Below are positions 22,342-64,000 of a DNA stretch of 64,000 nt, piece after piece (the first letter of the stretch is position 1; each line of letters begins with the position of its first letter). The stretch is from Owenia fusiformis (taxonomy: Eukaryota > Annelida > Polychaeta > Sabellida > Oweniidae): the NCBI GenBank assembly GCA_903813345.2, contig CAIIXF020000011.1, positions 5,540,571 through 5,604,570 on the forward strand, written 5' to 3'. The position numbers were made by a program, and so were the translations under genes. Under the pieces are notes generated by a model. That model worked only from the letters and a program-made list of their open reading frames with translations, had not been told where the DNA came from and ran no database searches.

Positions 22342-25300
22342 ATGCATTCTTTGGCAAATAAGTCAATATTTGCATCTACAACTATATTGAATCTAATGAT
22401 ATTAGGTATGTTTTGTTTAATTTATTTATATGAGTTTAAATTCATTGACTTGTTAACCGATGATTTTCAATTTAAATTGTATTTTAAATCGAAATAGCCA
22501 AATTAACACATTATAAAGGGAAACAAACGTTTTTAGTGTTAAATGTAAAACTTCTTAGGGAATAGAAGCGGAAATGTTAAGAAATGGCTACTTATTTACA
22601 TATCCTTCTTAAGAGTGGGAATAATGTATTAATGAGTTAACTTTGTCCTCTCAAAATTATGTTATCTTTCAAAACATTTTAAAAGATTTCCATATGAATT
22701 GATAACATGAATAGAATGTTTTTATTCTTTTAAACGCATGTAATCACATGCGTTTCATGAGAAATTATTTAGATGGTATTCTCAAAACATGATAACTGGG
22801 TATAATTTTCATTTACGATTTCATGGTATATCTACCGTTAGTGATCGGCACTTAATATTTCAGACATAATTCATACTAAAGTGGATAAAACATCAATGCA
22901 GTAATTGAAGAATTAAATGAATATCAATTTAGCTAAACCTAGTCTCTTATTGTTCCCAAGTAGATATTCTACTTCCAGTTTCTCAGTTTTTTTTCCATAA
23001 AAGCCGTATCAAGTTTTATTCAACGTATCCGATTACCAGCGGTAACTGGTCATAATTGTTTCATTATCTGTTAATATGGTTCCTCATATACGAGTATACA
23101 AATAAGATTTTCAAATACAAACCCCAAATTACAATTACAGTGTACGTAATATGAGATATCGAAAATGGAGACATTAATCATAAAGAATAAAAAAAAATAA
23201 ATAAAAAATAAAAAGAAAAGATCTGAAAAGATAAGAAGATAAAAATACGTACTTAATCAAATATCATAAGTGAATTTAATCACAATTCGTTTCTTTTCCT
23301 CGGTATTGCGTTTAGAAATGGCACACACAGTTAGCTGGAATGGGCCGCAATCGTTCTGGCTCCAGAATCACGGTGGTTAATAATATCGAAGGTACAGCCG
23401 CAAGTACTTGACTGCGACTCGTTTAACTTCCACAGTCATGCGCCAAAAATGGAGAATCATGCTTACCACGCCTGTCGAGAAAACGGTTAAATCCTCTGTT
23501 CTCATTTTGTTAAAATAACCTGGATCCATTTTTAAATACGTTGAATTGACATCGATTTATTCTTCAGATTTCAGTTTTTTCACTTTAAATCTGTTTGGAT
23601 AATTTGACTTAATATACATTTGAAAAGATTTTGAGTGCATTTGTGTTTATAAAACTCAACTGGAAACTGAAAGTATGATTTATGAGAAGCGTATGATGAT
23701 AGAATGTACATACATGGAAAAAAGTTCCTAGTGCACCAGTATTCGCAGTGAATGCGGTCCAGTAGTCGACTTAGCTACTGACCTGAAAATCAAACGTTTG
23801 TTACTGTTTCAACTATTTCTGGGCAACTGGGCAATTTATTTTCAACGCGGAACAATATTAAATAAAACTTGGCGATAATGTGTTGTGCGATTGTAAAGGG
23901 GCCATTAATTTAAATAATATGCGTGTAATATTTCCTTAACCGGCGGTCGACCTTAAAGTATCGATTTTGATATTTTTAGTTTTCATCGAATTAAACTACT
24001 TTTTAGTTGACGTAATGCTTTGATATTTGAATTGAATCCGATTTATATGACATGGAAACTCTGGAGTATTATCATTTGTCCATATTTCACACATTGGCGC
24101 TACAGTTTAACGACATCTTCCACCGCTTAAGGGAAGGTAACTTGGAATTTGGTTTTACATGATAAGATAACTGATATGTGGTGATGTGGTAACCTTATGT
24201 GAGTTCATAATGGAGAGCTAAGATGTCCGGTTTCCTCGTATTGAAAACTAACATGACCGTTACCATATCTTACATTCCAGTTACCTTCCCCTAAGCGGTA
24301 GAAGATTTCGTTGAACTGTGGCGTCCACGCATGATGTATGAACAAATTATCATACTCCATAGTTCCCATGTCATTTAAACCTGATTTGGTTCAAATATCA
24401 AAGCATAACGTCAACTACAAAGTAGTTAAATTCGACGAAAACTAAAAATATCGTAATCGACAATTAGTGTCCGCCATCTTAGATGTGAAGGTTACGGCCG
24501 TTACCTTCGCTTGATACTGACCAGTGACCTTGGGGCACGAGGCGTCATATGTACTCGTGAGACATTCTATTGATGAATTTAATGCCTTTACTGTATATAT
24601 TAAGCATCCATCACCATTGATATTACCCTCTCAAGCGTGAATCCCGGAGAAAGGTAATGTAATGCCTCATTATATTAAAGGTTATTGCGTGATCATGGGG
24701 TGAACACTGTATACCTAGAGTGAAATGTAATTCGGTAATTTTAAAGTGTTAATGAAAATCCGTGATGCAGATCTAAGCTTGTTCGCCTGAGACTAACCTT
24801 GTATTCGCGAATTCATCCATTCATATTAAATGAGTTTGTGAGGTTAATCCGGTAACCAACAGCCGAAAGTTGCATTCGCGAATACAAACTTACACCGTTT
24901 TCAATGCTACCTTTTAAGTCGACTAACGGCGATCAGTGATCACATGACTTTTTATGCCACTGAAATGGTCAAATATACAAGTAACAGGTAGACTAACCGG
25001 TTAAATAGCGACTGGTTCGAAGCGAGAGGGGGCAGCTAACGGGATGCATGGTAGGTAGGTTCATATTTAAATGAGTTTGCCCCCAAAATGCAATCCTGTA
25101 GCCGCTAGTCGCTATTTTAGTCTTGAATAGTCGAGAATATGTTGTTTTTGTTACTATTTAATGTGTAAAGCTGAGTGTTTACCTCTAGTAGTGTTTCGGC
25201 TTTAAAAGCCGCGCGGAACTATCTTCGATCGTTAATTTGAATTTTTGACCTACCAGATATTTGAAAATCAAGGATTGCGAGTCTCATACTGCACTTTTTC

Positions 25301-28300
25301 TTCAAACTTGTTCAATTCAAATCAAAATAAAATTGCCTTTCTGGCGGTGCATTGCTTTATTTTATTTATTTTTTTTTCAATTTATTTCAATTTCCTTGAT
25401 ATTGATATAAATACAAAAGTATGCCTTTGTTAACTTAATAACAATATCGGCATAGTAAATATTAAAAATATAACACAGGAATTTACACAATACAAAAACC
25501 ACGTAGTATGTTCAGTCTGTATGTATGCTTGCTCCCCATCCCACCCATAAGGTTCCCAAAGGATTCTAGAATGTTTCACTGGCTGTTTAAAACTGTGATT
25601 GCTGTTGAGACATAGTGAGCCACGATTTCAATAATTTTGCTATTCATCACATCACTAACGTTGGTATCCACATACAAAAGTGTATCTGATTTCTTAGAGG
25701 TTGTTAAATTTCTGAAATCGGGCAGACATTCCAGTTCGTCGAGTCCTGCAAGAAGCAATTCCCTTTCATTTATGAGCAGTGGACATTTAATTAGAAAATG
25801 AGAAGTGGTTTGATGAGCTGCACCACATGGACATTTGGGATCATTAACTGTGGTGAAATTGTGGGCATGTAAATGGTTACTAAGCAAGAGTCCAGCTCTG
25901 AGTCTGTTGAAAGTAATTTCTGTTTGTCTTGGCATAGTGTACTCCATTTTGGATGTGGGTAAGGATGCATGGCTCCTTTGCTTCCTGACTGATCTTTTGA
26001 ATCTTGAGATTGGCTGCCCAACTCGGATAGTTGGTGGAAGCCCATTCCAAGCTGAGATGGCACTACAAATTGTAGATTTTTGGTTGAGACACTAGTATGT
26101 AATGGAATCTGATAATCTGGCTGATCTCTCAGCCTTCTAGTGTGAACAATTTCATAAGTTCTCACCACATCACAGATGAAGGGAGGTAAAGCATTAAAGC
26201 GCGCCTTAAAAATATTTTTTTTAAGTGCTCATCCCTTCTCGATGCCAGCTTTTTCCAATTTAGAGAAGAAAGTACCTTATCAGTATTTGACCCATGAATA
26301 GCACCTGAAACTAGGCAGGCTGCTCTATAGTGCAGACTTTCGAGAGCTTGGAGCTTAAGAGCTGATGCTTTATTGTAAATTATGTCACAGTAATCTAAGT
26401 GGGGTATGAAGTAAGCATTGTAAATTGTTTCGAGATGTTTGCTTGATAACTTTTTACTAAGAGCCTTCAGTGGCCTCATTAAGATTTTCAATTTGTTAAT
26501 CAGTTGGTCAATGTGGGCATTAAAGTTTAAGTGTTTATCTAACACTATTCCTAAGTGCTTATGGGTATCTGTCATTGGTATTTGCTCATTTCCTAAGGTT
26601 AATGATGGTTGAGCTGCTAATTGGGTTCTTTGACCATAAAAGGTTAGATCAGCACTTTTTTGGGCTTGAAATTGCATGCGCCAAGTGGTTGCGCATTGAT
26701 TAAGATTGTTCAGATCTTGTTGAAGGGGTTGATTTAAATTCAATAGCATGTCAGAGTTTCTGTCATAGGCATCATAAAGTGACGTATCATCAGCAAAAAA
26801 TGAAAGTTTGGGAGTTTAAGTTGTCAGGTAAATCGATAATATATATTAAAAATAGTAGGGGACCCAAAACAGAACCTTGGGGAACACCGGCATTTATAAT
26901 ATATTGGGGTTTATTAGGATTATTGACCGGAGTGTTGTTGTTACCAATTAATTCAGGATCAGAGGACCAATCGGAAAGGCAGTTATTAATACGCACTTTA
27001 ACCCTTCTGTCTTTAAGATAGGAAGTCATTGCATTGCTTTATTGTACAGAGTTCCCCATTTTAGCAAGTTTTTGGTCCCCAGCTATGATAATCCCTTCTC
27101 ACAGCTAGCTAGGTACACAGAGACTTGCAATCCTTGATTTCCCCCAAAAACGGGTAGGTCAGAAATCCAAATTAACGGTCGAAGTTGGACAGAATGTTAG
27201 CACAAATGCACTCACCTTCGGTTCGTGCTTTGTAAAACATTCTGTCCAACTCGTGCTGAATTTCACCATATTGAATGGCCTATCATTATTTATTCCTTAA
27301 TCAAATAAACTGAAGAATGGTATTTCATCAACATGGCCTCTTACTATCGCATATTTTACGTTAAATGCTTGGTTGCAACATTAAAACATCGCACTTCTTA
27401 TCATATGTACATTGTAGATCAGAAAGTGTGCGAATTTCATCAAAGACCGATGGCATGCCCCATGTATAATATCATTACATGAAGGAACACGTCATTCTCC
27501 TTCATACGTATATGTATATAGTTATGTAAAAATGAAAAGTACATGATTGTGTAGTATTATACTGTGTTTATAAACGACAATATATGATGTTTTGAGCAAT
27601 CTGGTATATACACCCTTCGGGGAAATTTCAAGTAGGCACAGGTGGTCAGTCATTTATTAGAACTGGGCTTTTACCATTTCATTGAAAATAAGTTCATGCC
27701 AATTCCCTCTGCATTAAGGTGGTTTCTTCTTGCTAGCGGCAATGGGATTCCTTGGTATAAAATTCATTTGTCAGCATCATGTTATCGCCCTCGTTCTCTG
27801 TTTGTGAAAGAAGTAAATCGATTCTTTCACTGAAATACAATCTGGGTGGGTGGTATCAGGTGCATCGGACAATATGAGCGTACTGGGTGTGAAAACGCGT
27901 AGGGTATTGCTGTTCGAAAAACAGGTAAACTTAAGTGTTATTTCATTTGGTAGCATGTGGACGTTTTGTAGTGTTTTTACCTAGCAATACGCTCATCATG
28001 TTCGAAGGACATCAAATATCAGCATTCCGAAATTGACAGCCATCCATCAAAGAAATATTTTGATTTTGAAAAAGATTCTACGGTTAACCTATGATGCTCG
28101 GATGGGCCTTGACAGTAATAACAACAGATTTAAGATGGAGTTTTAATTTCCATTTATTACATAAGCCTTAACCGGAAAGAATGCGGTTTTCACTGTCTTA
28201 CAAACTGGAAACTGTTTTCGATGGCAAATGAAAACGAAATCATTATTATTATAATATGACAACCCCCACTTAAATATTGAAAACTGGAGCTTTGATTGTC

Positions 28301-31300
28301 AATTTGTAACAACTGAATGCTTCCTTGATGTACTGGGAACATGATGAGCGTATTGAAAGCAAAATGCTCACGACAGATATAAAATTACGGCTTTCTTACC
28401 GTTTTATTTTCTTTTATTCTTGACGAAAATAATCCCCGGGAAATAATCTACGCTATCTACTCGCTTGACGTAGCTGAAATAGTTTTACCGCAGTCAAGAA
28501 TTCAACTGATGTTCAACTGAAATAAACAAGGAGACGATTTTATGTTTTACTTTGCACATGCTCGATTCGTAGCAAACACGCGCTCTTGAATTTTCACGTG
28601 ATCATATCGTTCTGCAAATTGATTGGATAAAGTATCGAATGAAGCGCTTAATGCTCATGAATACTTAATCAGTGGCAATATATCATTGTTTGATTTGGTT
28701 GGTATAGAGAATCAGTATTATACGCTGACGTTGCAGATTTTATCGGAATGTATTAAGTAAGACGGAGCATTGAACTCGTTAAATGATCGAGAGTTATTGA
28801 TTAAGGGAAAGGCGTTGTGATTATCATCCTAAATCGTGTCTATTTATTTCATTATATCTAATTGAATAGAATAAGATAATGTAGTGGGATATTTTAAAGA
28901 TAATAGTCATGATCAATTTATTTGATTTTAGCACTTACGTACAAATCAGCATGCTAATCCCATTACAATGTAAGGCTACGTAGAAAGCAGCTGAACGACT
29001 AGTGGTTTATTAAAACAATTGTACCACACAAAATCAGGTGGAGGGTACATGCGTTATAAAAAAATATCCTATGGTTTTGAAAAAATATCCTTTATATCCA
29101 TGAGTGGATATTAATATCTTCATGAGTGAGTGCAGCGAATGAGTGAAGATATAAATATCCATGAGTGGATATAATTGATAATTTTTCAAAACTATAAGAT
29201 TGTCCGTATATCTCATAGGAAATCGTCATAAGTGAAAAAATTTAAAAAATAATGTGAAAAAATGTTGCAAAGAAATTTTGAAAAAAAATATTTTGGGAAA
29301 AAAATATTTAAAAATTGAACCAAATTTTTTTTGAAAAAATTCGAAAGCATCGAATATCACTTTTCAAACCATCTAATATCACTTTTTCAGTAGTTTTTAA
29401 GCAGTGATATTCGATAGTTTAAAAGTGATATTCGATGGTTTGAAAAGTGATATTCGATGGTTTGATGTGGCGAAAAATTGCCTACTCTGTATTTGAGTTT
29501 GTACCAATAAAACAAGTATCCAATAATCATGTTTATTCCATACCTTGTATTGTTATAGATAAATAACATGCGGTTATATAATTATTATCTGAATTTAGCG
29601 GGTGATTTATATATCACCCGCTCATCAAATCTACGACGTCCCGATCACAAATTCAGAGAGTAGATACGGAGCCAGGGGACTTGAGAATAATACAAACCCT
29701 CATAATCTACTAAATATAAATATAAAATAATACAGATATGCAGATATTCCGTATATCAAAAACCTCCCATTGAATAACCTCTATGTATTACTTTTTTCTT
29801 GCATTCTAGCCAGCTGTATAGTAACGGGATCGAGCAGGCACATAACTAACAACGAGGGTCGACCAAGTGATATCTTAAATACGTGAGTTGTAAAAATGAA
29901 TTTAATAAAGTTGATGAACCTTTCACTTGTTTTACAAATACGACTGTAAAATAATCTACCGATCTTTGTAGCACCGTTGATCCAAATCCTCTTTTTGCAA
30001 ATTCAAATGTTTAGAAAAATTGATGAACGAAGTACTCGGCGAATTTATTGCTTATTAAAGGCAGAATCAGATCTAAAGGGGTGACAAAATTACAAGCAAC
30101 ATGTATAATTGAACTACCAATCTATTCATTACAATCTCAAATACATCTCCCGAAAGATTCAAGATATGTTATAATGAAGTTATCATAGATTCAAAGTGCA
30201 AAAATGAGTGTAAAATGTTTAAATTCTCCCTAATAATATAAATGGTTAACCATTCTTATAAAAAATACCTTGGATTATTTGAATGTCAATCCACATTTGC
30301 ATGTTTAATCACAACATGTACATAAACAGGGTCATCATGTGGTATATCATTCAAGTTTTATACAGATTCAACTAATATAACACACTTTAATAAATCATGA
30401 AATTTAGCCACTTTTCCAAGATTTTAGCATGTAAGTGAATGGAACTCTAGCCCAAATTAAAAGCTGAATAAAAGATGGCAGCACTAGATTTCATTGATTT
30501 TTCTGCTATTTAGAAACTATCCTATTGTGCAAGATGAGTTCTGATAATATTCCTTTTTATTGTATGTTGCCTGACTTTGATTCCCTTTCATATGGCCAAA
30601 GTATAAGGCTCGGCACTATCTCATGATCAGTTATTAATGTGAGTTATCTCTCTGAGAACGAAAATCAAAATTTCCCTGTTAGATTCAGAGTATCCAGTGC
30701 ATTATGAAAGTTACGTAATTTTGTGAAGTCGTCACACTACATGCTAAAAATCTCCGGTTATACTACATAGTCACGCGGTACTAACTTCGACCGTTAATTT
30801 GAATATTTGACCCAATGGATGTTCTTGTAAGTGCAATTGACCAAATCAACGTTTTTAAATAAAGTATACTTGTTCTGACGTTGAGGTACCTGTTCCTATT
30901 TATTAATGTTTTGGGAAGTATATTTTTCTGCAAAATATTACAACGCATCGTATTGTATAGGATGTTAATTAGGTTAATTAAAACAATTATATATTACCAC
31001 GCGGTACTAACTTCGACCGTTAATTTGAATTTTTGACCTACCGGATGTTTGAAGATCAAGGATTACGAGTCTCAAACTGCACCGTTTTTCTTCAAACTTG
31101 TTCCATTCAAAGCAAAACAAAAATCCCTTTATGTTGGTATATTATTCTCTTAAACAGCGTCCCTATAGCTACTTCCAGCGGCATTTTGGTCCCCAGCTGA
31201 AAGAAGGCCTTCTAACAACTTGGGACCAAAACGCTGCTAGAACGGGAGACTCTTTACAATAAAATAATGCACCGACAGAAAGGCAATTTTGTTTTGCTTT

Positions 31301-31738
31301 TAATGGTATAAGTAAAACGGTGCAGTATGAGACTCGCAATCCTTGATTTTCAAGCCACTGGTAGGTCAAAAATTCAAATTAACGTTCGAAGTTAGATACC
31401 GCGTGATAGCGTTTTTCTAAATATCATATATTTCACTTAATTTCAGTTACGATGTGGGTGATAGCCTGCTATGGAAGATGCTGTCAGCGGGACTGGTCGA
31501 ATACTCTCCTGGTTTTACTGTTAATAGTCGCATAGCTCAATCGAACGAAGACGCAATGGATGCAAACAAACTAGACACATTCCAAAAACGCCGTGATGAC
31601 CATGCGAAACGAGACATGCACGAAGCATGCTGCAGAAACGTTATGGACGCATGCTCAATGCACAAATGGGGGCATGGTTGTATCGAGGCCTTACAAGGCA
31701 GAATGTGTGGATCTATGGGACTTTGTCAAAACAAGTAG
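22342..31738 (+). CDS. Secreted six-cysteine peptide precursor, paralog 1
   Basis: Three coding exons: 22342-22405, 29810-29882 and 31447-31738 (stop TAG), all with GT-AG borders, introns of phase 1 then phase 2; 142 aa. Exon 1 encodes a signal peptide (MHSLANKSIFASTTILNLMIL) that continues as ASC in exon 2. Exon 3 opens with TYDVGDSLLWK. The KRR and KR dibasic sites (FQKRRDDHAKRD) precede a C-terminal domain with six cysteines spaced CC-x6-C-x8-C-x8-C-x5-C and ending MCGSMGLCQNK. This architecture suggests a prohormone processed in the secretory pathway, with three disulfides in the mature peptide. I do not recognise the family; a hormone, antimicrobial or other secreted effector are all possible. 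The paralog at 48524-52420 has the same exon phases and cysteine spacing, which strongly supports the gene model. Intron 1 is 7.4 kb and filled with repeats. Confidence 0.85.
23942..24475. mobile_element. Foldback element with ~260-bp arms
   Basis: The left arm (GGCGGTCGACCTTAAAGTAT, then TTTTTAGTTTTCATCGAATT, ACATGGAAACT, and CACCGCTTAAGGGAAGGTAA) pairs with the right arm to about 24475, where each block recurs as its reverse complement. The centre is near 24210. Arms differ by scattered substitutions. No ORF. Confidence 0.8.
25362..27029 (-). mobile_element. 5'-truncated non-LTR retrotransposon with 14-bp target-site duplication
   Basis: The flanks TGCATTGCTTTATT at 25348-25361 and 27030-27043 are an exact 14-bp target duplication, as expected for target-primed reverse transcription. 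The 3' end (low coordinates) is A-rich on the minus strand and the 5' end is truncated inside the reverse transcriptase, the usual fate of LINE insertions. Confidence 0.9.
25576..27029 (-). pseudogene. LINE reverse transcriptase remnant with frameshifts
   Basis: The first frame (26790-27029) starts within the RT fingers/palm and has GVPQGSVLGPLLFLIYIIDL. A frameshift near 26800 moves to a frame with FFADDTSLYDAYD, carrying the catalytic Asp pair, and continues to 26162 with HKHLGIVLDKHLNFNAHI and the thumb-like C-terminal helices. A further shift leads to 25576-25947, with RLRAGLLLSNHL and a CPCGAAHQTTSHFLIKCP Cys/His cluster. At least two frameshifts and the 5' truncation make it inactive. 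It differs from the LINE at 1-11.1 kb and has Jockey/CR1-like motifs, but the clade is not firmly assigned. Confidence 0.85.
27177..27250. repeat. Short palindrome at the edge of the family F element
   Basis: AGTTGGACAGAATGTTAGCAC pairs with the downstream AAAACATTCTGTCCAACT around a loop near 27215. It overlaps the right end of the family F element and may be a separate small foldback insertion. Confidence 0.6.
29810..29882 (+). other. Coding exon 2 of peptide paralog 1
   Basis: A 73-nt exon between a TTCTAG acceptor and a GTGAGT donor, entering in phase 1 and leaving in phase 2. It encodes the end of the signal region (ASC) and a short polar pro-segment. The equivalent exon of paralog 2 is 76 nt with the same phases. 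Confidence 0.8.
30054..30272 (+). repeat. Dispersed repeat, copy 2 (partner at 11583-11807)
   Basis: Starts TTAAAGGCAGAATCAGATCT and ends near GGTTAACCATTCTTATAAAA. It matches the reverse complement of the copy in the RASL11-like intron. Located in intron 2 of peptide paralog 1. Confidence 0.7.
30996..31409. mobile_element. Inverted-repeat element family F, intact copy
   Basis: The left end has ACGCGGTACTAACTTCGACC followed by GTTAATTTGAATTTTTGACC; the right end is the inverse (AAATTCAAATTAACGTTCGA, then AGTTAGATACCGCGTGATA). The inner halves also pair (TTTTGGTCCCCAGCTG against GGGACCAAAACG). A solo end with the same start lies at 30769-30830. The element ends only ~37 bp before the exon 3 acceptor of the peptide gene. 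Confidence 0.8.
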
Positions 31739-32411
31739 TGGACATTAATGTGCCTTCAGAAAAATGAATACCTACGTATAATCACGATTTACATTACATA
31801 TAATTAGAGGACATAGAATTCCTAATATTGATACCTGCAACAGGTTAATTAGACAACTTTATAAGTTGGTCGTTAGATGTGTCCATACATGAATATTTTT
31901 GTCAGTTTTTCTCATGGACTTTCAAGACCCTTTGGTTTTTCTATATCACTGTTCCACATCAAGATATAGATGGCGCTAATTGCAGTTACAGTAATCAAAA
32001 TAGTGGACACAAATTCTTGCAAATTAGATTCAATTACACAGGTCATTGCCTTATGACATTCAATTACAGATCTTTGCCCTACGTAACCGTGATGTCAATA
32101 AGCTTGATTTGTCAATCGTACGACGATCATGCAACTAATCACTCAACGGTAAAAATCTAGTGGACAACGGGTTATAATGAGACAAGGGAAAAATTAGGAC
32201 ATTTGAATTGTTGACACTTGACTGAGTTGCAGTCACATGAACGCTTTGAAATTCTTAGAGAATTCTTAGAGAATTTGGAAAAATAACTTTGACTTTTTGA
32301 GATTCATATACAAATCCTAAGGCGTCATATTTAAGACTGTGAAACAACCCGACAGCTACCTGTAGTTTGTATGTCGTAGATAGACATATTTACGCGATAT
32401 GATATTTTCCC

Positions 32412-32760: not shown

Positions 32761-33469
32761 GACTTGTTTAATTTCGAACTAGCATTTGCTAAAAATGAAT
32801 ATAAAAGATGATGATCTTGATGTGTATATGATATTTTTATATGTCTGAATAGCTTAATAAAGCTTGCATGCCCAAAAATGTTCTCGTCTCTGTATGAAAG
32901 AAGTTATTGGTCATCTAATTCCTTGACTTCCTCAACATTGATGATTTCAATTAACAAATGGCATACTTATTAACAGTCCCTCAATAGGCCATATTAATGG
33001 CTTTAGAATATCGAGCTCTCGAGGAGGATTGGCTCTCTACACCGCGCGATTTTTTCCAACTCAGAATTTGAATCTCGAATTCAGATCTTATTTCAAAACA
33101 AAAATTAAAACATACATGAAGTAATCAAGATATTAGTTCAAATCCTTTGGAATGTTGATTATAAATTTATAGTCTGTTATTATGTCAGAAAATAGTTGTC
33201 GTCGATCGAGGTCTCAAGGTTGAATATCAAGTTTTAAGCCTGTGATCCATTCCTTCTTGGAGTTTCAAAACTCCCGTGATGTTTTTAATTTCATCTTACA
33301 AAAAGCACAAAATCGCCATTGTAAGCCACTATCAGGCGTATTTGTTTTGTAATACTTAAAGTGTAAAAGATCTTATAAAAGGTTCTGTCTTGAAGGAATT
33401 GGTCAGGTAAACCAACCACTTTTAGATGTGACCTTTACTTGACCTTCGAAAACGCTATCTTTGTTTCTC

Positions 33470-33523
33470 GAATTCGCCACCTGGTGGTGAAACAGGTAAC
33501 TACCTACTGGCATCTAGGTTATT
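33470..33523 (-). repeat. Truncated end of MITE family D
   Basis: TTCGCCACCTGGTGGTGAAA, then CAGGTAACTACCTACTGGCA and TCTAGGTTATT, match one end of the copies at 20351-20780 and 54811-55254. The rest of the element is absent. Confidence 0.7.
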
Positions 33524-35155: not shown

Positions 35156-35161
35156 TTTATT
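35156..35161 (-). terminator. Polyadenylation signal overlapping the stop codon
   Basis: On the minus strand the stop TGA (35161-35163) runs directly into ATAAAA, so AATAAA (35156-35161) shares its first A with the stop codon. If used, the 3' UTR would be about 10-30 nt, consistent with a very compact gene. Confidence 0.55.
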
Positions 35162-36873
35162 CATACCTTTTTTGATCTAGTACAGCAGCTAATACACTTG
35201 CATAAACCACACAAACATCTCGCAATGATGATAATTATGACGAGAATGATGACCCAAATGATGATTTCGAATGTGATAACAATAACCTCTGCAGCTTCAT
35301 CAATTCCATTCAGCCATTCACGCGGATTGATATATTTTAACCAATTCCAAGTTGCACTACTTTCAGTTGCGTCACTTTTTCCTGTTCTTTTAGTCTTGGT
35401 GTTATAAGGGATTGTGAACTTTAAAAGTGGTGTTGATCTGTAGCGTGCTATTTTACATATTTCTCTTTCTGGTTTGGAAAGAGGATGTAAGCATACGTAA
35501 CAGTCATAGTCTATGTCGCTTGGTATGGAATGGTATTTTCTGACGTCACTTACAACGCTGATAGAATCCACATAGAATTTCAACCTCGTCTGAATGGGAG
35601 AGTCTTGATTTGAAGAGTCCCGGATGTGCCCTAATACAGTCCCGGATGTCCTATAAAATGTTACGACCAACGCCTTGTTTGAATACTTATCTTGGGCTAT
35701 ACTTGCTCTAAAATCTGTCATTCTGGACTGATCAAAATGAAAAAGAACGTCGTTAAGCTCGTTAAGCATTAGAAATATGTCCATACGTGGAGATTCACGA
35801 TGTGTAACTATAACATGGCGATCAATTGCGACGGCGTCATCTACAAAATCATACACATTTCCAACTGTATCCGCGTCACCAATGACATCATCTTTGTCCC
35901 TATAGGCTACGTACTTCCCGTCAAACCACCATGTAAATTCATTCGATGGCGCCCAGGTTATTCTTGCCCCATATGCCTCAAATAGTTTTGTTCTATCAAA
36001 AATGAATTTATTATCTTGGTATTTGAACCAACCTAGTTTGTCCAAATCCCATTCGTTGAGATTGTTCATTGGGATTTTTGTAAGCACCTCCGTTGACCCA
36101 AGTTCAGAGAAATACATTTGGATTGGAATGGCCTGAGTGGGCCCAGCACTCTGAACATCTAAACGTATCATACTATCAGCTTGAGATTGTACACCTTGGT
36201 TGAGGTTAACAACAAAATACCGCGTCTTGTCAATTGTCTCTTCGGTGTTAGCGTCAAAAACTTGAAGCTTAAAATGTGCAAATGTTTCCGGAACACCGGC
36301 GTAGTAGGCAACATATCGTTTATAAGACTGAGGCTGTACGGTGAGTCCGGTACAAAGTTCTGCATCGTGACTTAACGTCGTAAAGCAACCACTTGCTTTC
36401 TGATTGGGAAAATATTTGTTCACGCAGGTGTCCGTGTTACCTTTACAGACATCTTTCCCGTAATAACACCAATCGGTAAGTAGTGGACAATCCGTCATAC
36501 CTTTGCATGTAAGTTTTGGAATGGCAAAAGTATACTTCTCTACCATTGGATGGTGGTGTTGTATACTCTCGTACGTAAGCCTATACAATAGCGTCACGTT
36601 GGCGTAATCGGGGTCGACGTCGGAGTTCTTTAAATCAGGGAGGCTAACCTTTACTTCAAAACAAGTGCTTTCTTTATAGCCTATCGCTGAGTTGATAATT
36701 GTTTTCGCAATCAGTGTTGAACTTGATCGGTTCAGGAACTTCGCGTGTGATATGATGGTAGGTTGTATTGTACAAATATCTCTCCACTTGGACTCTTCTT
36801 TGGATCCTTCTGTTCTAGGCATCATTAATATCAGAACACTTAACACTGTAAACATCATCATCAACAAAGTCAT
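35161..36873 (-). CDS. Intronless type I membrane glycoprotein, fusogen/envelope-like architecture
   Basis: Single-exon ORF of 570 aa from the ATG at 36871-36873; the codon before it is TTG. It has an N-terminal signal peptide of ~23 residues, then a large ectodomain with about 12 cysteines, mostly in the first 200 residues (for example TCKGMTDCPLLTDWCYYGKD). Glycosylation sequons are at NRS and NVT, and a KTKR possible furin site lies near residue 500. A transmembrane helix at about 528-551 (VIVITFEIIIWVIILVIIII) is followed by a 20-residue cytoplasmic tail rich in cysteines (CLCGLCKCISCC), likely palmitoylated. Size, topology and cysteine distribution resemble class II fusogens such as the EFF-1/AFF-1 cell-fusion family, or captured viral envelope proteins. 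This is an inference from architecture; I recognise no diagnostic motif. The intact frame argues for a functional gene. Confidence 0.8.
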   Translation of the reverse strand: MTLLMMMFTVLSVLILMMPRTEGSKEESKWRDICTIQPTIISHAKFLNRSSSTLIAKTIINSAIGYKESTCFEVKVSLPDLKNSDVDPDYANVTLLYRLTYESIQHHHPMVEKYTFAIPKLTCKGMTDCPLLTDWCYYGKDVCKGNTDTCVNKYFPNQKASGCFTTLSHDAELCTGLTVQPQSYKRYVAYYAGVPETFAHFKLQVFDANTEETIDKTRYFVVNLNQGVQSQADSMIRLDVQSAGPTQAIPIQMYFSELGSTEVLTKIPMNNLNEWDLDKLGWFKYQDNKFIFDRTKLFEAYGARITWAPSNEFTWWFDGKYVAYRDKDDVIGDADTVGNVYDFVDDAVAIDRHVIVTHRESPRMDIFLMLNELNDVLFHFDQSRMTDFRASIAQDKYSNKALVVTFYRTSGTVLGHIRDSSNQDSPIQTRLKFYVDSISVVSDVRKYHSIPSDIDYDCYVCLHPLSKPEREICKIARYRSTPLLKFTIPYNTKTKRTGKSDATESSATWNWLKYINPREWLNGIDEAAEVIVITFEIIIWVIILVIIIIIARCLCGLCKCISCCTRSKKV

Positions 36874-37654
36874 CAATGGTAGCTATTTATCATCGATATA
36901 TGTTTTTAACCAATCCAAAGTAAAAGTGTGTTAGCAATTATTATATCTTTATCAGCAATTGTAACATATTTATCAACAACGGTTGCACCTTCGCCGACTG
37001 GAGTTAGACCTTTATCAGCACTTATAACGCCTCTGTAAACGACTGTAGCACTTTTACTACCAGTTTATATACTGACACCATCTACTTTAATGAAACGTCC
37101 TGCTAAAGTATGCTTATCTATTATATATTCTTTGTTTCATTTATTAGGGAATTAGATTATTGGAACAACAATCAAATTATCAAAATCGATTAAAGGTTGA
37201 GTTAGGATAAGTTAGATTAGGCTACGTTAGGTGTTAGACTATATTAGGTGGGTTTGGTAAGTAACGTCGACGTTAGGTTAGGCTGTATTAGATGAGTTTG
37301 GTAAGTTACGTCACCGTTAGGTTAGGCTACATTAGATGGGTTTGTTAAGTTACGTCAGGTTCAGTTTGTTGTGTTACTGTATGATTAGTTAGGTAAATTC
37401 TCGAAATCGTTGTTCCCTCTTCAAAAGAGGAGACGCGAAAATCTTTCCCTATAAGGTCAAAATAGGTTTAGTTATGTGTATTATAGATAAGGACTCAAAA
37501 AGGACAAATGTGATTGGTGTTATAGGGGAGTTATGCTGTTTTAACGGCAAAGGACCAGGTAAAGTATGGCAAGTGATTTTTAGACGGTCGTATATTTCAC
37601 CATGAGTACTTTCTGAATTTAAATAATAAGTATTGTTAGTACCTCAGTTGAAAT
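36874..37654. other. Upstream region of the glycoprotein gene, with a short minisatellite
   Basis: No gene is visible. 37195-37375 holds about three diverged copies of a ~60-bp unit (GTTAGGTTAGGCT...TTGGTAAGTTACGTC). The rest is AT-rich and unremarkable and presumably includes the promoter of the minus-strand glycoprotein gene; no clear TATA box was found. Confidence 0.6.
37195..37375 (+). repeat. Minisatellite, ~60-bp unit, about 3 copies
   Basis: The units share TTAGGTTAGGCT, then ATTAGATG(A/G)GTTTGGTAAG and TTACGTCACCG. Copies differ by several substitutions. Confidence 0.7.
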
Positions 37655-40786: not shown

Positions 40787-42730
40787 TTAGATAATTTGAT
40801 CTTTGGTATCTGTGGTTGGTAGAAAAACATCGAGGCACGTTTTAACCCTTTCAACTGCCCTATCCCCGTCGATTGGAACGGAGATTTTTCGAATCAACGT
40901 TTTGCCTTCTTTTGCACATGGTACTTTTAATTTATTCGGTTTCTTTTCTTTAAGCGGCGTTTTAATACCAATACCGTTATAACGAGACTTCACAAACCGT
41001 CTGCCCGAATCGCTTACGTCATCAATAAATGCTTCTAACGTTGAATTGAGAGTATTTGATTCCTTTCGACAACTAACATTTCTTTCAACATTACCATCGT
41101 TCAGTCGTATTTGTCTTAGCTTACGAGTAATAGATGAGTAATCTGACATCTCTATGTGATCGTTTGTAATTACATTGTGCTTCAAGGCATTCGAATTGTT
41201 TATCGAAGAACCATCTATTTTAACTGATGTATCAATTCCTTTTGTATGAACTTTTTGAAATTTCTCTTTATTTGTAATGTTCATTTCTTGAATTGACACA
41301 CTATGTTGTTCAGTTTTGTATGTGTTTTCATAATCAGCAAAATCAAACGTATCACAACTAGTATCAACATTATCTACATCGTATTTTGTTTCCACGTTGT
41401 CCAACTTATCTTTCTTATCTCCCGCTTTGCTATCGTTTGAATGAGTAATTGAGTCATTTGAATCATAATGATCGCTGCTTGTAATTTCTTTAACACTTTC
41501 CGCTCTTTTTGAGATTTCTAAATAAACATTTTTGGAATGTGTATCAATTGTTTGGTTCTGGTCGGTGCTAAGACTCGGTAAGCTTAGGGACTGTGACCAT
41601 GTTCTCTCTGAGATTGGCATAGCTTGTTGCGAGATACATTTACAATCGGGACATTCTCCCTCTCGAAGCTGTGTCAAGTCAGTCAGAGATCTGTGTATCG
41701 GACTCTCAAACTGGCGTCGCTTAAAACGAGCAACATTGTTATCGACGTAGCGTTTTGCAGAAGTCGACTTACGTAGTCCCTCATGAGAGTTGTGTTTGTT
41801 TTCAAATGGCCCAGTTGGTGTGAATCCTGGCGTTTCAAGTTTTGTAGAAATATTTAAAAACTCCTTAGGTTTAGCGTTCATCTCTTTTGGTGGCTGTGTA
41901 TCATGAATCTTCCAGTATTCCTTATAAGGAGTAAGTCTTGTCTCTGGTTCCGAATTCTCCCCTAAAACTTGCTTTTGCTGTCTGCTTGATTGATTTCCCG
42001 ATGACATACGCTGTGTGATGCGATTCAGTATATTTTCATTTCTGTAATATTTTTCTCGTATTGAAGTGTGACTCTTTATTTTTGCGTGTATTTTCTCGGA
42101 TAAAAACACATCTGTTTTATGTTTAGACTCGGTATCTACCACAAGCTGGGTGATACCACTAATTTGGAGACTCCTTGGCAATGGCGTTCGATTTGATTTT
42201 TGTGCTTCCATCTTTTTACTTTGGACAATGCTGAAAATATAATTCGAATTTAGTTGAAGTTAGTATCTATCATTGGTGGATTTTCTGTATTTGATTATAA
42301 GCAGGAATGATACTCCTGGGTCCAAGGGTAATTTAATCGCCTATTATATACGAATTTTGAAAATTACGTTTAATTGAAAGAAGCCAGAATTCAAAAAATA
42401 AAAGTGAACCAAAAACGGGTTTCGTTGTACGTGCCGAGATTTAATATCACAGATTTTACTTGGAAACAACCAACCTCTCACGTGGACTCAACTTTCAGAC
42501 TCCTCCCCCCCCCCCATAGAAAATATTACCCAACATAGTCAGTTTGAGGTGGCTACTTACCGTGATTCGAGGGTAAGAGTTCCAACACCTGCATTCAATG
42601 CCCTAGACGTATCAACATGATGGCTATCCATCGTACTTCTTATCATTGTGCTGCTTTTACAGATCCTTAGTGCCCTCTTCTGCTTGCACAATTTGCAACA
42701 TAGGCCAAATGGCGTTTTCGGTCTGTCCAT
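40787..42730 (-). CDS. Uncharacterised 537-aa Ser/Thr-rich, probably disordered protein
   Basis: Two exons on the minus strand. Exon 1 is 42561-42730 (170 nt; ATG at 42728-42730 is the first Met after an in-frame TGA; donor GTAAGT) and exon 2 is 40787-42230 (acceptor TTTTCAG), joined in phase 2 across a 330-bp intron. Exon 1 encodes a cysteine-rich N-terminus (PFGLCCKLCKQKRALRIC) and the frame stays open across the junction. Exon 2 carries a basic/aromatic stretch (IREKYYRNENILNRITQRM), a second cysteine cluster (GECPDCKC, about residue 250) and long polar regions rich in Ser, Asn, Asp and Lys. CxxC pairs in both exons could bind zinc. I do not recognise the family. The protein is probably largely disordered and intracellular; there is no signal peptide or membrane segment. 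Confidence 0.75.
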
Positions 42731-44097: not shown

Positions 44098-44436
44098 TGT
44101 ATCTCATACTTGAGTGGGTTTGGGGTAGATATCACCCGGGAATATATATCGTATCTGAGGAGCGGGCAGGATATATTGTATATGTCCCGCTCCAGGCCAA
44201 ATGCGGGCAGATATAATATATCCATCCCGCTCCCGGGAATTTTTAAAAGTTTAAAAAAGTTTAAATATCAAAAGTTTTAATTTTTTAATTTTAAAATTAA
44301 AATTTTTAAGTTTAAATGTTACAATTTCATTGTATTGAACAATAAGAATATTACGAAAATCAATATGAATATCTTGTCATCTGAAAAAGGTGGAAAAGGT
44401 TATATCTACCCTAAACCCACTCAAGTATGAGATACA
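44098..44436 (+). mobile_element. MITE family E, copy 1
   Basis: TGTATCTCATACTTGAGTGG, then GTTTGGGGTAGATATCACCC at the left; CCTAAACCCACTCAAGTATG and AGATACA at the right, in inverted orientation. The body has CCAGGCCAAATGCGGGCAGA. The second copy is at 52785-53073. Non-coding. Confidence 0.8.
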
Positions 44437-44440
44437 CCAG

Positions 44441-44583
44441 TTATGCACGGTCGGTTTGGATACATGGAATATCCCTTGGGATATACAATACATCTTCCCT
44501 CGGTCCCTTCGGTCCCTCGGGAAGATATATTGTATATCCCTCGGGATATTCCCTGTATCCAAAACCTCCCAGTGCATAACCAT
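44441..44583. repeat. Palindrome next to MITE E
   Basis: GTTATGCACGGTCGGTTTGG and ATACATGGAATATCCC pair with the right arm ending TATCCAAAACCTCCCAGTGC and ATAAC. A GGTCCCTTCGGTCCC core forms the loop. A remnant (TATGCACTGTCGGCTTTGGA) follows family E copy 2 as well, so the two may belong together. Confidence 0.75.
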
Positions 44584-46669
44584 TATGCATTCAATATATA
44601 TTGATTATATCTTATATAGATATAATCAATATTATTTCTTAGTCGCGAATCCAGGTTATCTCAATCAAATGTTTCCCCTCGATTTGAAATCCACACCCAC
44701 CAGGAAATAAAATCTAGACTTTTAAGGTGATTTTGGGTAATTTCACGTCTAGTGCAAAAACGTATGACTATATAAAAGCTCTTCTTCCTACTATAATTAA
44801 AAAGATCCCCAATTCTTTGATTTATATACAAAGCACGACAATTATTCACAATTCCATCAGTCCACTAATGTCTGAAAAACTTTTAGCAAAAAGTTATGAT
44901 AGGTAGATAGGTATATCTCATGACACAGGTACGTAAAAGATACGTTAAATGTTAGCATATCTAAAGTATTCACTTTTATGTTGCTAAAATGGACGATCAA
45001 TACAATAAAAAATCCATCCATCGGTGATATTGTCAATGTGCATTTTAGGGCAGATGGGTGATTTACTTATTTCATACATGTACGATCGATCATGGTAAGA
45101 ATGGGGAATACCTCAGAATTCAACATTGAACATATATATAGGCCCGGGTGTGGAGACAGAAGAAGAAATGCCCACGGGCAACCATTTTAACATCTTACTC
45201 ATTAACGGGCACTATCCACACTTTTGAGGATTGACTTGATGACACCGTACCACTGCCCATAAAACCAGCCTGTTTTTCAGAGAAAGTCTATCCCTCAGGA
45301 CAAATCATTCCGCCGCCATCTCTAAATGAGTCAACTTTGAAATGATATTAGATATATTGATCCTCGATTCATTTGTAAAACACCAGATGGCAACCTGATC
45401 GGGTAGAAAAGGAGAAAATCACTTTTTTATAGAAAACTAAATATTCTGCATGAAAATAGGTTCATCTTGATTCTGGAAGATTTTCGCCTCTTAATTGTGA
45501 TCTTGTTCCCAATCAATTAGGACGCTTCGTTCCAGAAATGGACTTTGTAGCTGTTCACAAGCGTGTATAATTATATGATCTTTGTAGTTTCAGAAACTGA
45601 TGGAAACAATACCCTGAGACTTGAGCTAGTACAATTTACTAACCTCTAGCTAGGATGGACAGTTTGACGTTGATAAGATCGTATCGAATCCAAATATGGT
45701 TGTCATGGCAAGTCATGGAAATTTGGTGTAATAAAACCCAGGTACGTGTACCTGGAATAACGGTACATAATCTTAAAATGACTCCGATTCTGACTTAGCA
45801 ACTGAAATTTGATCGACATAATATGATTGTATTCGGCAAAGTATAACATCGAGAGCCTCAGAACATTTGCTCTACGACAGTCGTACGGCGGCCGTACGGC
45901 GACCGTAGTTTCACAAAACCGGTATAGGAAAATCGTTATCGTACTATCATCCCTATTATGCTTCATATTTATCTCAATTTTTGGAAGCTACTACCACCAT
46001 TCGTTTGATGTAGATGAAACGTCACTTAGGCTGCAGTGAAATGGTTCACTGAGATGAGGCTAACTGGTATTTGATGAACTTGATCAGCTTAACCTTGTTG
46101 TTAAAACCAAAAGAAATCATAACTACTTTGGTTGCTTTCGCGTTTACCCTTTCCAATAATCTGATTTTCATTTACACTTCATCTACAACTCCTTCTACAA
46201 AAACCAATCACTGATCCCAGGGTAGCTAGTAGGAAGTCAGTACAATATTGATTTGGTTCGTTTGATTAATAGGTTTGATCAGTTCGACCATTTTACGCTA
46301 TTCCAGTTTTGACAAAACCATCGATTCTCTATTGAATTCCATACGGATATGATTGATGATGTTGTCAAATTTTTCTACGTATTCGTCATCAAATTCCACT
46401 ATGATGGAATTGAGAAAAATGTTTCCTTATGTAACTACGTGAGGAGAATCACCAGTCGCATTCGTGTGATTTAGGTAACGTTCGCGAATTCAACTGTCGG
46501 CTAACGGTTAAAGTTTATCCTTCTTGTCGTTGCCACCTCATTTCAATATGCATGGAATATTCGCAAGAAATTAAAATTAATATTCGCAATTCGTTAGCCA
46601 TCAAAAAATTCGTGAATGCTACCCTAGGCTCTTCTGATTATCAGTTTCTTGTTTCCAAGCCTTTATTCG

Positions 46670-47755
46670 TGGATGCAAACAGCGGCTGACGGCTACCGGA
46701 TTAACCTACTATTTTATGACCAACTCATTCGAATATGAATGGAATAGTGACCGTTTTTTCGGCATTGACCAACATCTTTTTTTATTTTTGTCAACATCCC
46801 GGCCCATGGGATAACCTTCAAGGATTTTAGAATATAAAAACCCAAACAACCATTTTATTTCATATCTAATATTTGCATACATATACAATGCGTCCCATAT
46901 AAAACGCAACAAACAAAGACATTGTAAAATCACAAAACCAGTGATGATTACATCAATTTGAACTAGTTTACCAGGAAGCCACATGTCTCCTCTTTCCAAT
47001 GGTATGTCAATTATTCATATAAGCTCTGGGCCAAGTTTTAGACATGACAGCAGTTAACAAAGAATCACCGATGAGGTTGTGCTCTCTGCCATAACCTCAG
47101 ATGATTCAAAGAGGTGTGCAACATGGACACACATGCCAGTCTCAGTGTGTAAAGAAATAGTGGCCATGCGAAAGGGCATGGAATGTAATCCTTCATGAGT
47201 AATCGTTCATAAGATGACAGACAACGACTGTTTAAATGCCACTTTTTTATGTTTCGTTGACTGTGAACCAACAAGTTAAGGATACTGATGAACACTTAAA
47301 GTTAAATTTTCTTTTCATTTTTTCTTTTTTCTTAGTAAATCTAAAGCAGAAACAACTTGTGTTAGGTAAATCTTGTGACAAAAAATTAATTCCCAGTACC
47401 AATTACATAATGATTTTTCTGATTGCACAATAATGATCAGTTGATTGATATTTCATAACTTGGCACAGAGGCCTTTCACCCATTTACGAAAAAACATTGG
47501 AAAGTGGAGACAGGTGGCTTCATGATAAACAAAATAAAATTGATCTATTCATCACTGGTTTTATGATTTTACAATGTTTTTCTTTGTTGCGTTTTTTGGG
47601 ACGCACTGTATATTAAATTGCCGCTAATGTTGTAAAACCTTGGCAATTAGCTAATTGAAATCGATTGTAATTGTTTATATTAGAAACTATTCATATCTAA
47701 ATGAGTTACCCATAAAATAGTAGAATAATCCGGTAGCCGACATCTTTTTATATTC
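46670..47755. mobile_element. ~1.1-kb foldback element
   Basis: The left arm (GGCTGACGGCTACCGGATTA, ATAAAACGCAACAAACAAAG, CATTGTAAAATCACAAAACC) is the inverse of the right arm (GGTTTTATGATTTTACAATG, CTTTGTTGCGTTTTTTGGGA, AATAATCCGGTAGCCGACAT). The arms are ~300-380 bp with a ~400-bp central spacer and no transposase. Related CGGTTACCGGATTAACC-like sequence occurs near 24850-24870. Confidence 0.75.
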
Positions 47756-48336
47756 ACCAGCCACGACTTAGTCCAGTGTAATTATCTTATATATCCCCGG
47801 GAGTACATTATTATCAATTAAACATTTGTATAGTATCCAATGTGTGTATTGCACGCGAGAATCAGCGTTTACAGTTTGACTGTTAATGGGGTTAAGTGGA
47901 CACACGAGTCCCACATCATTTCCACTAGTTTTGATCTTTATCTGTAACATCATATACATCATAAAATACTGACAATTAATCTTTTTAATTGTATAGCGAC
48001 CGAAATTGGGGAACTCCACTGAACCCAACTAATTAATTTCACCTATACCCTGTAAATGCCCCCTTTACAAAGAGTATCGCTATAGGTTTCATTATTAGCG
48101 CGTTTCCTTGCTTTGAACACATTTAATAATATACATAAAGTCATTCATTCCATCACTGACTACGTACGTAAATGCTCAGATTTCGTAACTTATTGCATGG
48201 GGTGTATCACTGCTACCTTTCTCAATTGAACATAAAGAGATTATCAAATTGGATGTTTTTCTCAATTAGGCGCGGTCGAGACGGGCATATGTCGGTAACG
48301 CTATCATTGCTCATCCTACAACTTTAATTTTTTGAC

Positions 48337-48342
48337 TATAAG
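48337..48342 (+). promoter_or_regulatory. Possible TATA box of peptide paralog 2
   Basis: TATAAG (context GACTATAAGAGAAGG) lies 187 bases before the exon 1 ATG at 48524. It is weaker than the TATATAAAGG of paralog 1 but at a comparable distance. No other good candidate was seen in the preceding 150 bases. Confidence 0.35.
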
Positions 48343-48523
48343 AGAAGGATAAATATTTAAAGAAGCAGAAGTTCAATTGAAAAAATAGTTTAAATAAGGG
48401 AGAAATACGACATTATATACAAATAAGTGAAAATATTGCAAAATACTAATATAAGTGGACTTTCATCACATCGCATTAGTAGTCGCTGTTTGAAAAGCTA
48501 GGGGTTAGCATAACATTTTACAA

Positions 48524-51500
48524 ATGCATTGTGTTTTCGGACCGAAACTTTATGTTTGGATTTCGACGATTCTTCCTTTTCTTTTATTAGGTAAGACAAT
48601 TAGTTTATATCATTATTTACTGGAGTTAAATAATTTGAATTCATTCATTGGGTTCATTAAAATGGCAAACTCAATCTACTCGTGAAATTGAAATCAAAAT
48701 AATACAGGAAAAACAACAAATTAAAATAATCTCGATAAAATTCTTACCATTTGACACAACTGGCATTTTCAAATGTTATAGTAATATTCAAGTTATTGCG
48801 GAATCAGTTATTATGGAATTGCAAGTTATTTTGACATAAGTTATTGTAGCATTTGAGTTATCATTACACCGCAGTGACAAATCAATAAATAGAGAATAAT
48901 CTTGTCATTGAGCTTGGCGTTTTAGTGTTATTCAAATGTGTGTGATGGGAAGTATAGTCCCCCGGTGATTATAATCCCCATTCTATGGCCAACATTGGTT
49001 GTGATTGATTGAAACCCAATAAAAACGACTTAAGTCAAAGATAAGTCAATATGGGAAATTTTTCACTGAGTAATTTTTTTTTTAATTGCAACCAGGGCAA
49101 TCTGGAACTTTGTAAAAGAGGAACTATTATCTCTGGAGGACAAGTACTCCTCTTACACCGGCCGTTATACTGATTTCCTAAATAAAAGTAAAATTCAAGT
49201 TCATAAATGATTTACGCATAACACTTTTCTTCATTCCAGTGAACTGTCATAGTATTAGCAGATCTAGCCCCACGTATTTTGGCGAAGACACATATCCACG
49301 TAAGACAATAGACAGGTACGTATGAAAAATACACTCTCCTCCATAAGTTCTGTAACCGGACTTTTCTTTTTGAATCACATTTAGAAGCCTTTTATTTCTT
49401 GGGATTTTTAAAAATTCATCAAAGTCATAATTTTCCATTGTACAACGTCTTGTGTTAAAGGAATGAAATAAAGATTCAAATATCTGCAGGCTTTAACACA
49501 AATGAAAACTTCAGGTTTTGCCAAATTTATGGAGGGGAGTGTATGTCATAATCTTATTTTTTCCCTGACAAATGAAATAGCTTACTAAAAACCCTCGGAC
49601 AGAAGGAGTTACTCTGTCCCTGAGCTTTTAAAGTTATGTTTTTAGATGGGTCTTCAGCTCGTGATATATTGTAGTCACCCACCTGCGCCTACATTATCTA
49701 ATTCATATTTTCCTAGTTTCAATTTTAGATTTACGTTTTAGTTCATAGCATTCCTTGACATGTAAATTTCTTAAAAATACTCAAAATGCATACTTTGAAA
49801 TATTTTTTCCGATTGATAACATATTGTGGGTCTTTTGAGAGATACTTTGAGATCACAATAGGGTATATCGGTATTTCGCGATCAATTGACCACTTGCAAT
49901 ACTAAAGGATGCATAGATGACGGCGTGGGTGTTGCTAGAGCTTTAAAAGTTTCAAATAAAACTGTGACTCATAAATGGAAATTAAACTGTATCAAAAAAT
50001 ATTTTGAATTTCAATTGTAATTGAAAACCAATGTCATTACATTGAGTATTACACTTTATTCCACAGTTAGCATAATATTCATAGGATAACATGTCAAAAT
50101 AAAAACGGTATTTTTGAAATCAGTGGTAAAATATGATATTTTTGACAAATTTTCACTTAACCATAGCATACGGTGTTTTAGCCATGACATACGGCGCCGT
50201 ATGCTATGAATAATGGATTTTTGCTACTTCTGACTCAAAACGAGGCTAAGTGTCAACATCGCCAGATTGTTTGGAAAATTCAAATTAAATCACTTAATTT
50301 CCGACGATTCTCATGCTGACTTTAACTATGGAATAGTTACGCTCGCTCGTGCAGATATCATATCCATTCATGGATAAACATCATAGCACTCATAAATCAT
50401 AGGATATCCTCTATATGTCATATAGTCACCACCTGCCATTTGCTACAAACAAGTTTCTATGCTAGTATGGATGTTGAATTTGGAGATCTCTGAATTTTGA
50501 TGCCTATCTTGAGTTAAGACCAGGATATTGTTTCCAATATGATTTATGGCGCAATATAAGATATTTTCTTATCGGTGTTAAAACAACGAAATCTCGAACC
50601 TATCGTGGTCTATTTGGCAGAACGAACAACAGAGATCCATAGTTGCGAATGATCTCACAAGTGTAGGCATTCGTAGTTGGTAACTCCATTTATTTAGTAT
50701 ATACACCAGTTCTTTCAAATGCGTAGATACCAGTTCCAAAGAATCGATCACTAGCTCTGCTTTAATCATTAAAGTTCAACTCGAACTCCTATTCACACAG
50801 ATCAAAAAATGAAAATATTAATTTATTAATGAACATGCTCTTATCAAAACGAATCAGTGCTTTAAATTACTCAATCGATTTTCTTTAATAACAAAATCTG
50901 TAAAGGGGTATACATTTTAGATTAATGACTTGTCATATTTCTGTCCCTCGACTCCCTCCAGGTATCTTTTTAGATTTATAGTTTCTAGTTCATGTAAAAC
51001 GATTACATGACAATACTGCACTTTTACCATTTCTTCAGTTAATTTAGGCATGACTCAATAATGTGGAGCGATTCTTGCACTAGTTTCTTATATAGATAAT
51101 CAAAAACGAGGGCGATAGTCCAAGTATTATTGATGACCCAAAATTTCCATCGTTTAAAGAGATCGGGTCTCCAAAAAACACAATTAGAGTAACCCCCTGA
51201 TTTTTTCGTGTTATTTGATGTAAAACAAGTTTGTTTATCAACTCATCAATTATGAGGCTTGAATTAATTCGTTAACAGTATCAATTCGATGATTGTTCCT
51301 TGCCATGAGTTTCCTCTTACATCAATAGAAATTAAAATCTAAATTTAAAAAGCCCGCTCAAATTTGTTACAGTCTGATTGGCTTTTTCCTTCAGATTATT
51401 TTGGCTCAGAGATGCCATATTTATTACTTCTAAGGGGTTACAATATAGATAAATCTCCCAAAAACATTGTATTCTGTTTTCGACTTATTGCGTTGAATTC

Positions 51501-52420
51501 TGACAGTTGGTTGTTCTTTTGGTTGTCCTGTTGATAGCCTCAGTATATTGTCGATATCGTGCTTATGATTTGGTCCCAAGATATATTTAAGGTATATATG
51601 ATGTTTTATGAGCAATTATATTGGGACATTAATGATTGTCCAGAATAGAAATCTGGACGATTCGATTTCTTTAAGGCTTATCTGGTCACGTTTATCTAGA
51701 CTCATCTTCTATAGTGAGGTATCGAAAAAGTCTAATATGAACTGAACATCAAACGGAGGAATATCAAACATACATTTTTGTTAATTTAATAATTACTAAT
51801 AAACATGCACCTTGAAATATTAATTATTGCCTCCGGGGATTATTGTTTCCTATCTTACATCTGACTTACTTTGATTGAAACCACTAACCCAGATGCAAGT
51901 CGGACGTTATCCAGTTCCATCACAAATATGACCAAGTGGCTTGATTTCAAATGTAAAATCACTCAATTTTTTTTATTCAGAAGTTATATTACATACATTC
52001 AATACAATATTCTAAAAGCTTGTTTTAATGATGCAAATGACTATTTCTGCTTGCATTAAGTCTTTTTGTTGAATAATCTATTGTCGACCAGACCTCCTAT
52101 CCCATTGAATTCGTTTTAAGTGTTTATATGTCTTTTATTTATCCAGGTATGACGATTACGGAGCAAATAACAAACTTTGGAAGCTGATAAAGATTATACT
52201 AGGGCGACAACAGGACAATATGATAGCTGCGCCGAAAGATGGCACCATCGTTTCCGATAAACGCAATATCGAAAAAAGGATACACTTTAAAGATGCGTTG
52301 AAGAAACGCAGTATTGCTTGTTGTCATAGTGTTGCTGATAGATGCGGGCATTTTGCTGGGGGTCCCGGATGTATGCAAGCACTGGAGGCCCGGATGTGTG
52401 GTTCCATGGGACTATGTTAA
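48524..52420 (+). CDS. Secreted six-cysteine peptide precursor, paralog 2
   Basis: Three coding exons: 48524-48590, 49240-49315 and 52147-52420 (stop TAA), with GT-AG introns of phase 1 and phase 2 as in paralog 1; 138 aa. Exon 1 encodes a hydrophobic signal peptide (YVWISTILPFLLL) followed by VNC. Exon 3 starts RYDDYGANNKLWKLIKIILG, aligning with the YD...LWK block of paralog 1. Three basic processing sites follow (DKRN, EKRI, LKKRS). The last would release a ~36-residue peptide starting SIACC. Its cysteines are spaced CC-x6-C-x8-C-x8-C-x5-C, identical to paralog 1, and it ends with the same MCGSMGLC directly before the stop. Probably a processed secreted peptide stabilised by three disulfides, of unknown function. 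The two genes lie in the same orientation 16.8 kb apart and must come from a duplication. Confidence 0.85.
49240..49315 (+). other. Coding exon 2 of peptide paralog 2
   Basis: A 76-nt exon between a CATTCCAG acceptor and a GTACGT donor, entering in phase 1 and leaving in phase 2. It encodes VNC and a 24-residue polar pro-segment. A MITE-like inverted repeat (49326-49546) begins ten bases after the exon ends. Confidence 0.8.
49326..49546. mobile_element. MITE with ATACACTC-TCCTCCATAAGTT ends
   Basis: ATACACTCTCCTCCATAAGTT, with GGAC and Cys-rich reverse frames, pairs with the right end CCAAATTTATGGAGGGGAGTGT. Similar ends appear at 33880-33910 and, inverted, at about 21632-21655. An internal TTATGACTT(C/T)GATGA(G/A)TTT block is shared with 33987-34010. 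It sits right behind a splice donor. Confidence 0.65.

Positions 52421-58072: not shown

Positions 58073-64000
<5,928 letters not shown>

Follow-up and report, generated by a model that had tools for sequence, protein, structure and literature searches.

A pair of paralogous genes in Owenia fusiformis for a putative six-cysteine secreted peptide family

Introduction

Do two small genes that lie on the same strand of the Owenia fusiformis genome encode processed signalling peptides, and is the family to which they would belong a new one? The question arises from an initial annotation of a 64-kb window (the whole stretch of DNA that was analysed), in which an undescribed family of secreted peptides had been proposed. 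In PMC8111721 Owenia is placed in the lineage that is sister to all other annelids, and an orphan peptide of this animal therefore bears on the rate at which peptide signals turn over in animals. Our analysis confirms a real, constrained and unnamed pair of peptide genes and makes a new family of an ordinary kind plausible; as an unproven orphan, the pair joins the many lineage-restricted peptides of this type already described.

Gene organization and deposited precursors

Both genes are on the plus strand and consist of three exons. Exon 1 (22342..22405 in gene 1 and 48524..48590 in gene 2) contains the start codon and a hydrophobic, signal-like stretch and is followed by a phase 1 intron. 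Exon 2 (29810..29882 and 49240..49315, each flanked by canonical AG/GT) encodes the end of the signal-like region and pro-region sequence and is followed by a phase 2 intron. The remainder of the pro-region, the six-cysteine domain and the stop codon are located in exon 3 (31447..31738 and 52147..52420), together with the basic sites KRR and KR and a QNK tail in gene 1, and with KR, KR and KKR in gene 2. Splice sites were inspected for all six exons, and the introns of both genes were of the GT/AG type. Cumulative exon lengths of 64 and 137 bases in gene 1 and of 67 and 143 bases in gene 2 give phases 1 and 2 in both genes. The two three-exon, same-strand genes proposed initially were thus correct in all coordinates, splice sites and phases.

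An in-frame stop was present upstream of each start codon (at 22288 in gene 1 and 48506 in gene 2). Regular-expression searches detected a TATA-like box, TATATAA, on the plus strand at 22207..22213, some 135 bases upstream of the gene 1 start codon and a consensus match only; no such match was found within 300 bases before gene 2. The same type of search placed ATTAAA, which may serve gene 2 as a poly(A) signal, at 52482..52487 on the plus strand, and the nearest AATAAA or ATTAAA downstream of gene 1 at 32856, more than 1 kb away.

Spliced translation gave precursors of 142 aa (gene 1) and 138 aa (gene 2), which are identical, letter for letter, to NCBI P0001 and P0002, respectively. Both proteins have already been deposited as 'unnamed protein product' of Owenia fusiformis, on a contig of 37.3 Mb, and the window is accordingly assigned to this annelid. 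These records presumably derive from the published Owenia genome annotation, which is described as a merger of gene models built from RNA-seq with hints from splice junctions and with ab initio prediction (PMC9977687). Since RNA-seq was merged with ab initio prediction in that annotation, transcript support for the two genes is likely, if unproven for this pair.

A conserved C-terminal cysteine frame

A frame scan located CC-x6-C-x8-C-x8-C-x5-C at 31628..31726 in gene 1 and at 52319..52417 in gene 2 (both plus strand), the C-terminal frame that had been proposed for both genes. When the 64-kb window was translated in all six frames, two copies of the exact frame appeared; none of 200 mononucleotide-shuffled windows contained it, and a loosened frame returned the same two copies and no third within the window. 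The domain had also been described as ending in MCGSMGLC. This is true of gene 2, but gene 1 continues past the last cysteine (MCGSMGLCQNK), and the identical terminal block, RMCGSMGLC, comprises nine residues rather than eight.

Whole precursors were 29-31% identical to each other, in agreement with the overall divergence noted before. Over ungapped columns, identity was 7/24 in the signal region, 14/76 between the signal and the domain (a region that also takes in the few residues after the cleavage site that precede the domain) and 20/34 in the domain. In Fisher tests, which treat residues as independent and are based on one pair of sequences, the domain was compared with the region before it (p 4e-5; p 0.002 once the six cysteines are excluded; p 0.016 once the last nine residues are excluded) and with the signal region (p 0.03). 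Within the domain, pN was 0.286 and pS was saturated, and the last nine codons had 0 nonsynonymous differences, with 5.0 of 5.8 synonymous sites differing. With silent sites saturated and no amino-acid change in the last nine codons, the duplication must be old, and what has been kept is the peptide, not the DNA.

Conservation of the domain against a divergent signal and pro-region indicates that selection keeps the mature domain, and the comparison supports a fast-evolving pro-region with selection acting on the C-terminal domain. Selection had been claimed for the cysteine frame, the processing sites and the last residues; the frame and the end bear this out, but among the processing sites only the basic site shortly before the domain is kept. 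Such constraint, as read from two sequences, would fit signalling or any other conserved secreted role equally.

One alternative is that skin, tube or mucous glands make the product as an exocrine or toxin-like peptide. The cysteine order of the Owenia pair, CC-C-C-C-C, is that of conotoxin framework IV (A-superfamily), a weak likeness when order is taken alone, and the loop lengths of framework IV differ from those of the pair. In conotoxins the signal is conserved and the mature toxin is variable, whereas in the Owenia pair conservation sits in the mature domain and the signal and the region before the domain diverge, which argues against a conotoxin-like pattern. In addition, we know of no venom in the tube-dwelling Oweniidae. 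A signal, a propeptide and a single mature peptide near the C-terminus form the predicted layout of the pair and also the layout of conotoxin precursors (PMC4278219). We consider a toxin-like role decidedly unlikely.

Predicted processing and mature peptides

The hydrophobic N-terminal stretch encoded by exon 1 of both genes is signal-like, as judged by eye. Basic sites are KRR and KR in gene 1 and RK, KR, KR and KKR in gene 2, and the last of these before the six cysteines is KR at residues 100-101 in gene 1 and KKR at 100-102 in gene 2. The polar pro-region with dibasic sites that had been described was recovered insofar as sites are present in both genes, but their positions differ between the two. 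Beyond the domain, each precursor has a single cysteine in its signal region, and gene 2 has Cys3 in addition; no other cysteines are present. With a basic site shortly before the six-cysteine domain in both precursors, the layout appears to be that of a processed disulfide-rich secreted peptide, as had been proposed.

Cleavage at the last basic site would release a 41-residue peptide from gene 1 (after KR; 31613..31735, plus strand; four K+R and four D+E) and a 36-residue peptide from gene 2 (after KKR; 52310..52417, plus strand; two K+R and two D+E). Their computed charges at pH 7.4, with Cys as free thiols, are -0.48 and -0.82, and their computed average masses with three disulfides are approximately 4537 and 3625 Da, respectively. 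Both masses are open to detection by peptidomics, and the gene pair is a defined target for such work and for receptor studies. A C-terminal amidation signal was absent from both precursors.

In a two-row AlphaFold2 model, the domain contained helices at 4-17 and 21-32 at low confidence (mean pLDDT 64.5), and a weak fold search with this model gave no structural match worth the name. The full-length model of gene 1 was poor (mean pLDDT 39.6).

The predicted charge also bears on a secreted defence peptide, in which the released six-cysteine domain would act on microbes. A small, disulfide-rich unit at the C-terminus, after a pro-region and basic sites, is a layout common to many invertebrate antimicrobial peptides, and the local gene pair would be in keeping with it. 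Antimicrobial peptides are usually cationic, whereas both mature peptides, as predicted, have as many K+R as D+E, leaving no net positive charge. Such near neutrality speaks against an antimicrobial peptide of the typical cationic type, and the terminal block, strictly conserved between old paralogues, also counts against a defence role. We regard a defence role as unlikely, if less so than a toxin-like one.

Search for relatives

Pfam profile searches at E values up to 10 (HMMER filters drop most matches above approximately 0.1) gave no match above cut-off for either precursor. The sole entry returned was a sub-threshold Ribonucleas_3_2 for gene 1, a result that also counts against an antimicrobial peptide. 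No match to the domain profile was found among PDB sequences. A search of approximately 5.8 billion proteins yielded no relative beyond the two precursors themselves, and when the gene 2 domain alone served as query in this search, gene 1 was not returned. Because this search depends on exact words common to query and target, and because it missed gene 1, its result means that no close relatives are present in that collection. Other Owenia paralogues may exist beyond the pair.

In the literature, the strings MCGSMGLC, CGSMGLC and MCGSMG were absent from the open-access full texts searched, and cysteine-spacing strings retrieved no matching peptide from the open-access literature among the matches listed, as judged by title and start of abstract. 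The initial annotation had claimed an undescribed family. No named match appeared in any search made, but both proteins were already on deposit, unnamed. These observations are consistent with a peptide family that is unnamed as far as searched, by searches insensitive to distant peptide relatives.

Could the pair instead have diverged from within an established family, such as insulin/relaxin, eclosion hormone, the six-cysteine orexin-type peptides or the echinoderm np11/np15-like peptides, with similarity too weak to be detected? Short peptides lose similarity fast, and the protein search, in which the gene 2 domain missed gene 1, is insensitive; on the other side stand the Pfam searches with no match above cut-off and the PDB sequences with none to the domain profile. 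Echinoderms have several peptides with six cysteines, among them orexin-type, np11 and np15 peptides, as described in PMC4772807. The starfish orexin-type peptides described there carry an amidation glycine, whereas the Owenia pair has none.

Additional features of the window

Between the two peptide genes, an uninterrupted 573-codon frame on the minus strand (35161-36882) matches, with residues 67-525, profile PF14884 (EFF-AFF cell-cell fusogens) over its full length (E 1.8e-73). It also matches the EFF-1A structure 4cyl (E 3.6e-36) and has two further sub-threshold Pfam matches. Among the literature matches listed, two contain the word annelid, and neither bore on an annelid EFF/AFF protein as judged by its title or, for PMC8987731, by passages of its text. 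A polar-rich open frame of 490 codons (40787-42259, minus strand), which may belong to a host gene as one of its exons, had no Pfam match at E values up to 1.

A retroelement remnant occupies 690-2696 on the minus strand and includes a frame (1149-2696) with a reverse transcriptase domain, PF00078 (E 1.4e-26). Within the first intron of gene 1, frames on the minus strand at 25576-26815 resemble, by eye, the terminal part of a reverse transcriptase of the LINE type; no Pfam match reached cut-off for the frame at 26162-26815. Two tandem arrays were also present, one with a 476-base unit in two blocks at 3893-6714 (82-86% matches) and one with a 40-base unit in 10.5 copies at 59187-59613 (92% matches).

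Proposed function

It appears fairly probable that the gene pair encodes processed hormone-like peptide signals of one family, whose secretion, cleavage and receptor action we infer from sequence. Given the observed gene structure, cysteine frame, basic sites and domain constraint, both genes would encode preproproteins of one peptide family, which would enter the secretory pathway via an N-terminal signal sequence. The six C-terminal cysteines may fold into three disulfides, and proprotein convertases would cut at KR in gene 1 or KKR in gene 2, leaving one near-neutral peptide of 41 or 36 residues per precursor. Each peptide probably forms a short, disulfide-closed unit of two helices, the helices being those of the low-confidence model. 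Once released, it would act on a receptor in a hormone-like or neuropeptide-like manner, and the invariant RMCGSMGLC end would be the likeliest contact or folding core.

The shared three-exon layout with its phases, the conserved domain and the near-neutral predicted peptides count for this hormone-like role. Counting against it are the lack of an amidation signal, the unconserved positions of most basic sites, the poor full-length model and the lack of a structural match. A more specific version, in which a new three-disulfide hormone family is represented by an old Owenia pair with a two-helix fold and with RMCGSMGLC binding a receptor, is tentative and on the doubtful side. If it were true, and if the family occurred in other early-branching annelids, the peptide would represent an ancestral annelid signal that was lost or is unrecognised elsewhere.

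Comparison with known systems

The A-chain of insulin/relaxin peptides has an adjacent CC pair in the spacing CC-x3-C, compared with CC-x6-C in the Owenia pair, which also has no separate B-chain cysteines. Likeness extends to basic-site processing, which is predicted for the pair, to the adjacent CC itself and to introns of phases 1 and 2, which are also carried by Dilp7-type insulin-related genes (PMC11863921); the intron likeness is one of phase. Precursors of the insulin type contain both a B-chain and an A-chain (PMC11863921), whereas the six domain cysteines of the Owenia pair lie in one 33-residue stretch, with none between the signal region and the domain. Neither an insulin/relaxin nor an eclosion hormone/CHH profile was listed as a match by Pfam at E values up to 10. 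To our knowledge, eclosion hormone/CHH-type spacings have no adjacent CC pair. These hormones are secreted and have six cysteines and three disulfides (PMC8398477, PMC4772807), as is predicted for the Owenia peptides. A diverged member of a known family is very unlikely in our assessment, the least probable of the readings weighed here.

Among echinoderm precursors, Arnp11, Arnp15a/b and Spnp11 are small and contain a spacer and one proposed six-cysteine peptide of 47-57 residues (PMC4772807); these peptides are longer than those of Owenia and are likened to them by description, not by sequence or spacing. In the account given in the same source, np11 has no apparent similarity to peptides from other phyla. 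Lineage restriction is also found in annelid- or Platynereis-specific cysteine-bearing proneuropeptides (WLD, SLL-1, SHM, RNT and CCAa, among others; PMC3890597), again likened by description only. Judged by analogy, the Owenia pair is nearest in kind to these echinoderm orphan six-cysteine precursors and to the annelid- or Platynereis-specific cysteine-bearing precursors.
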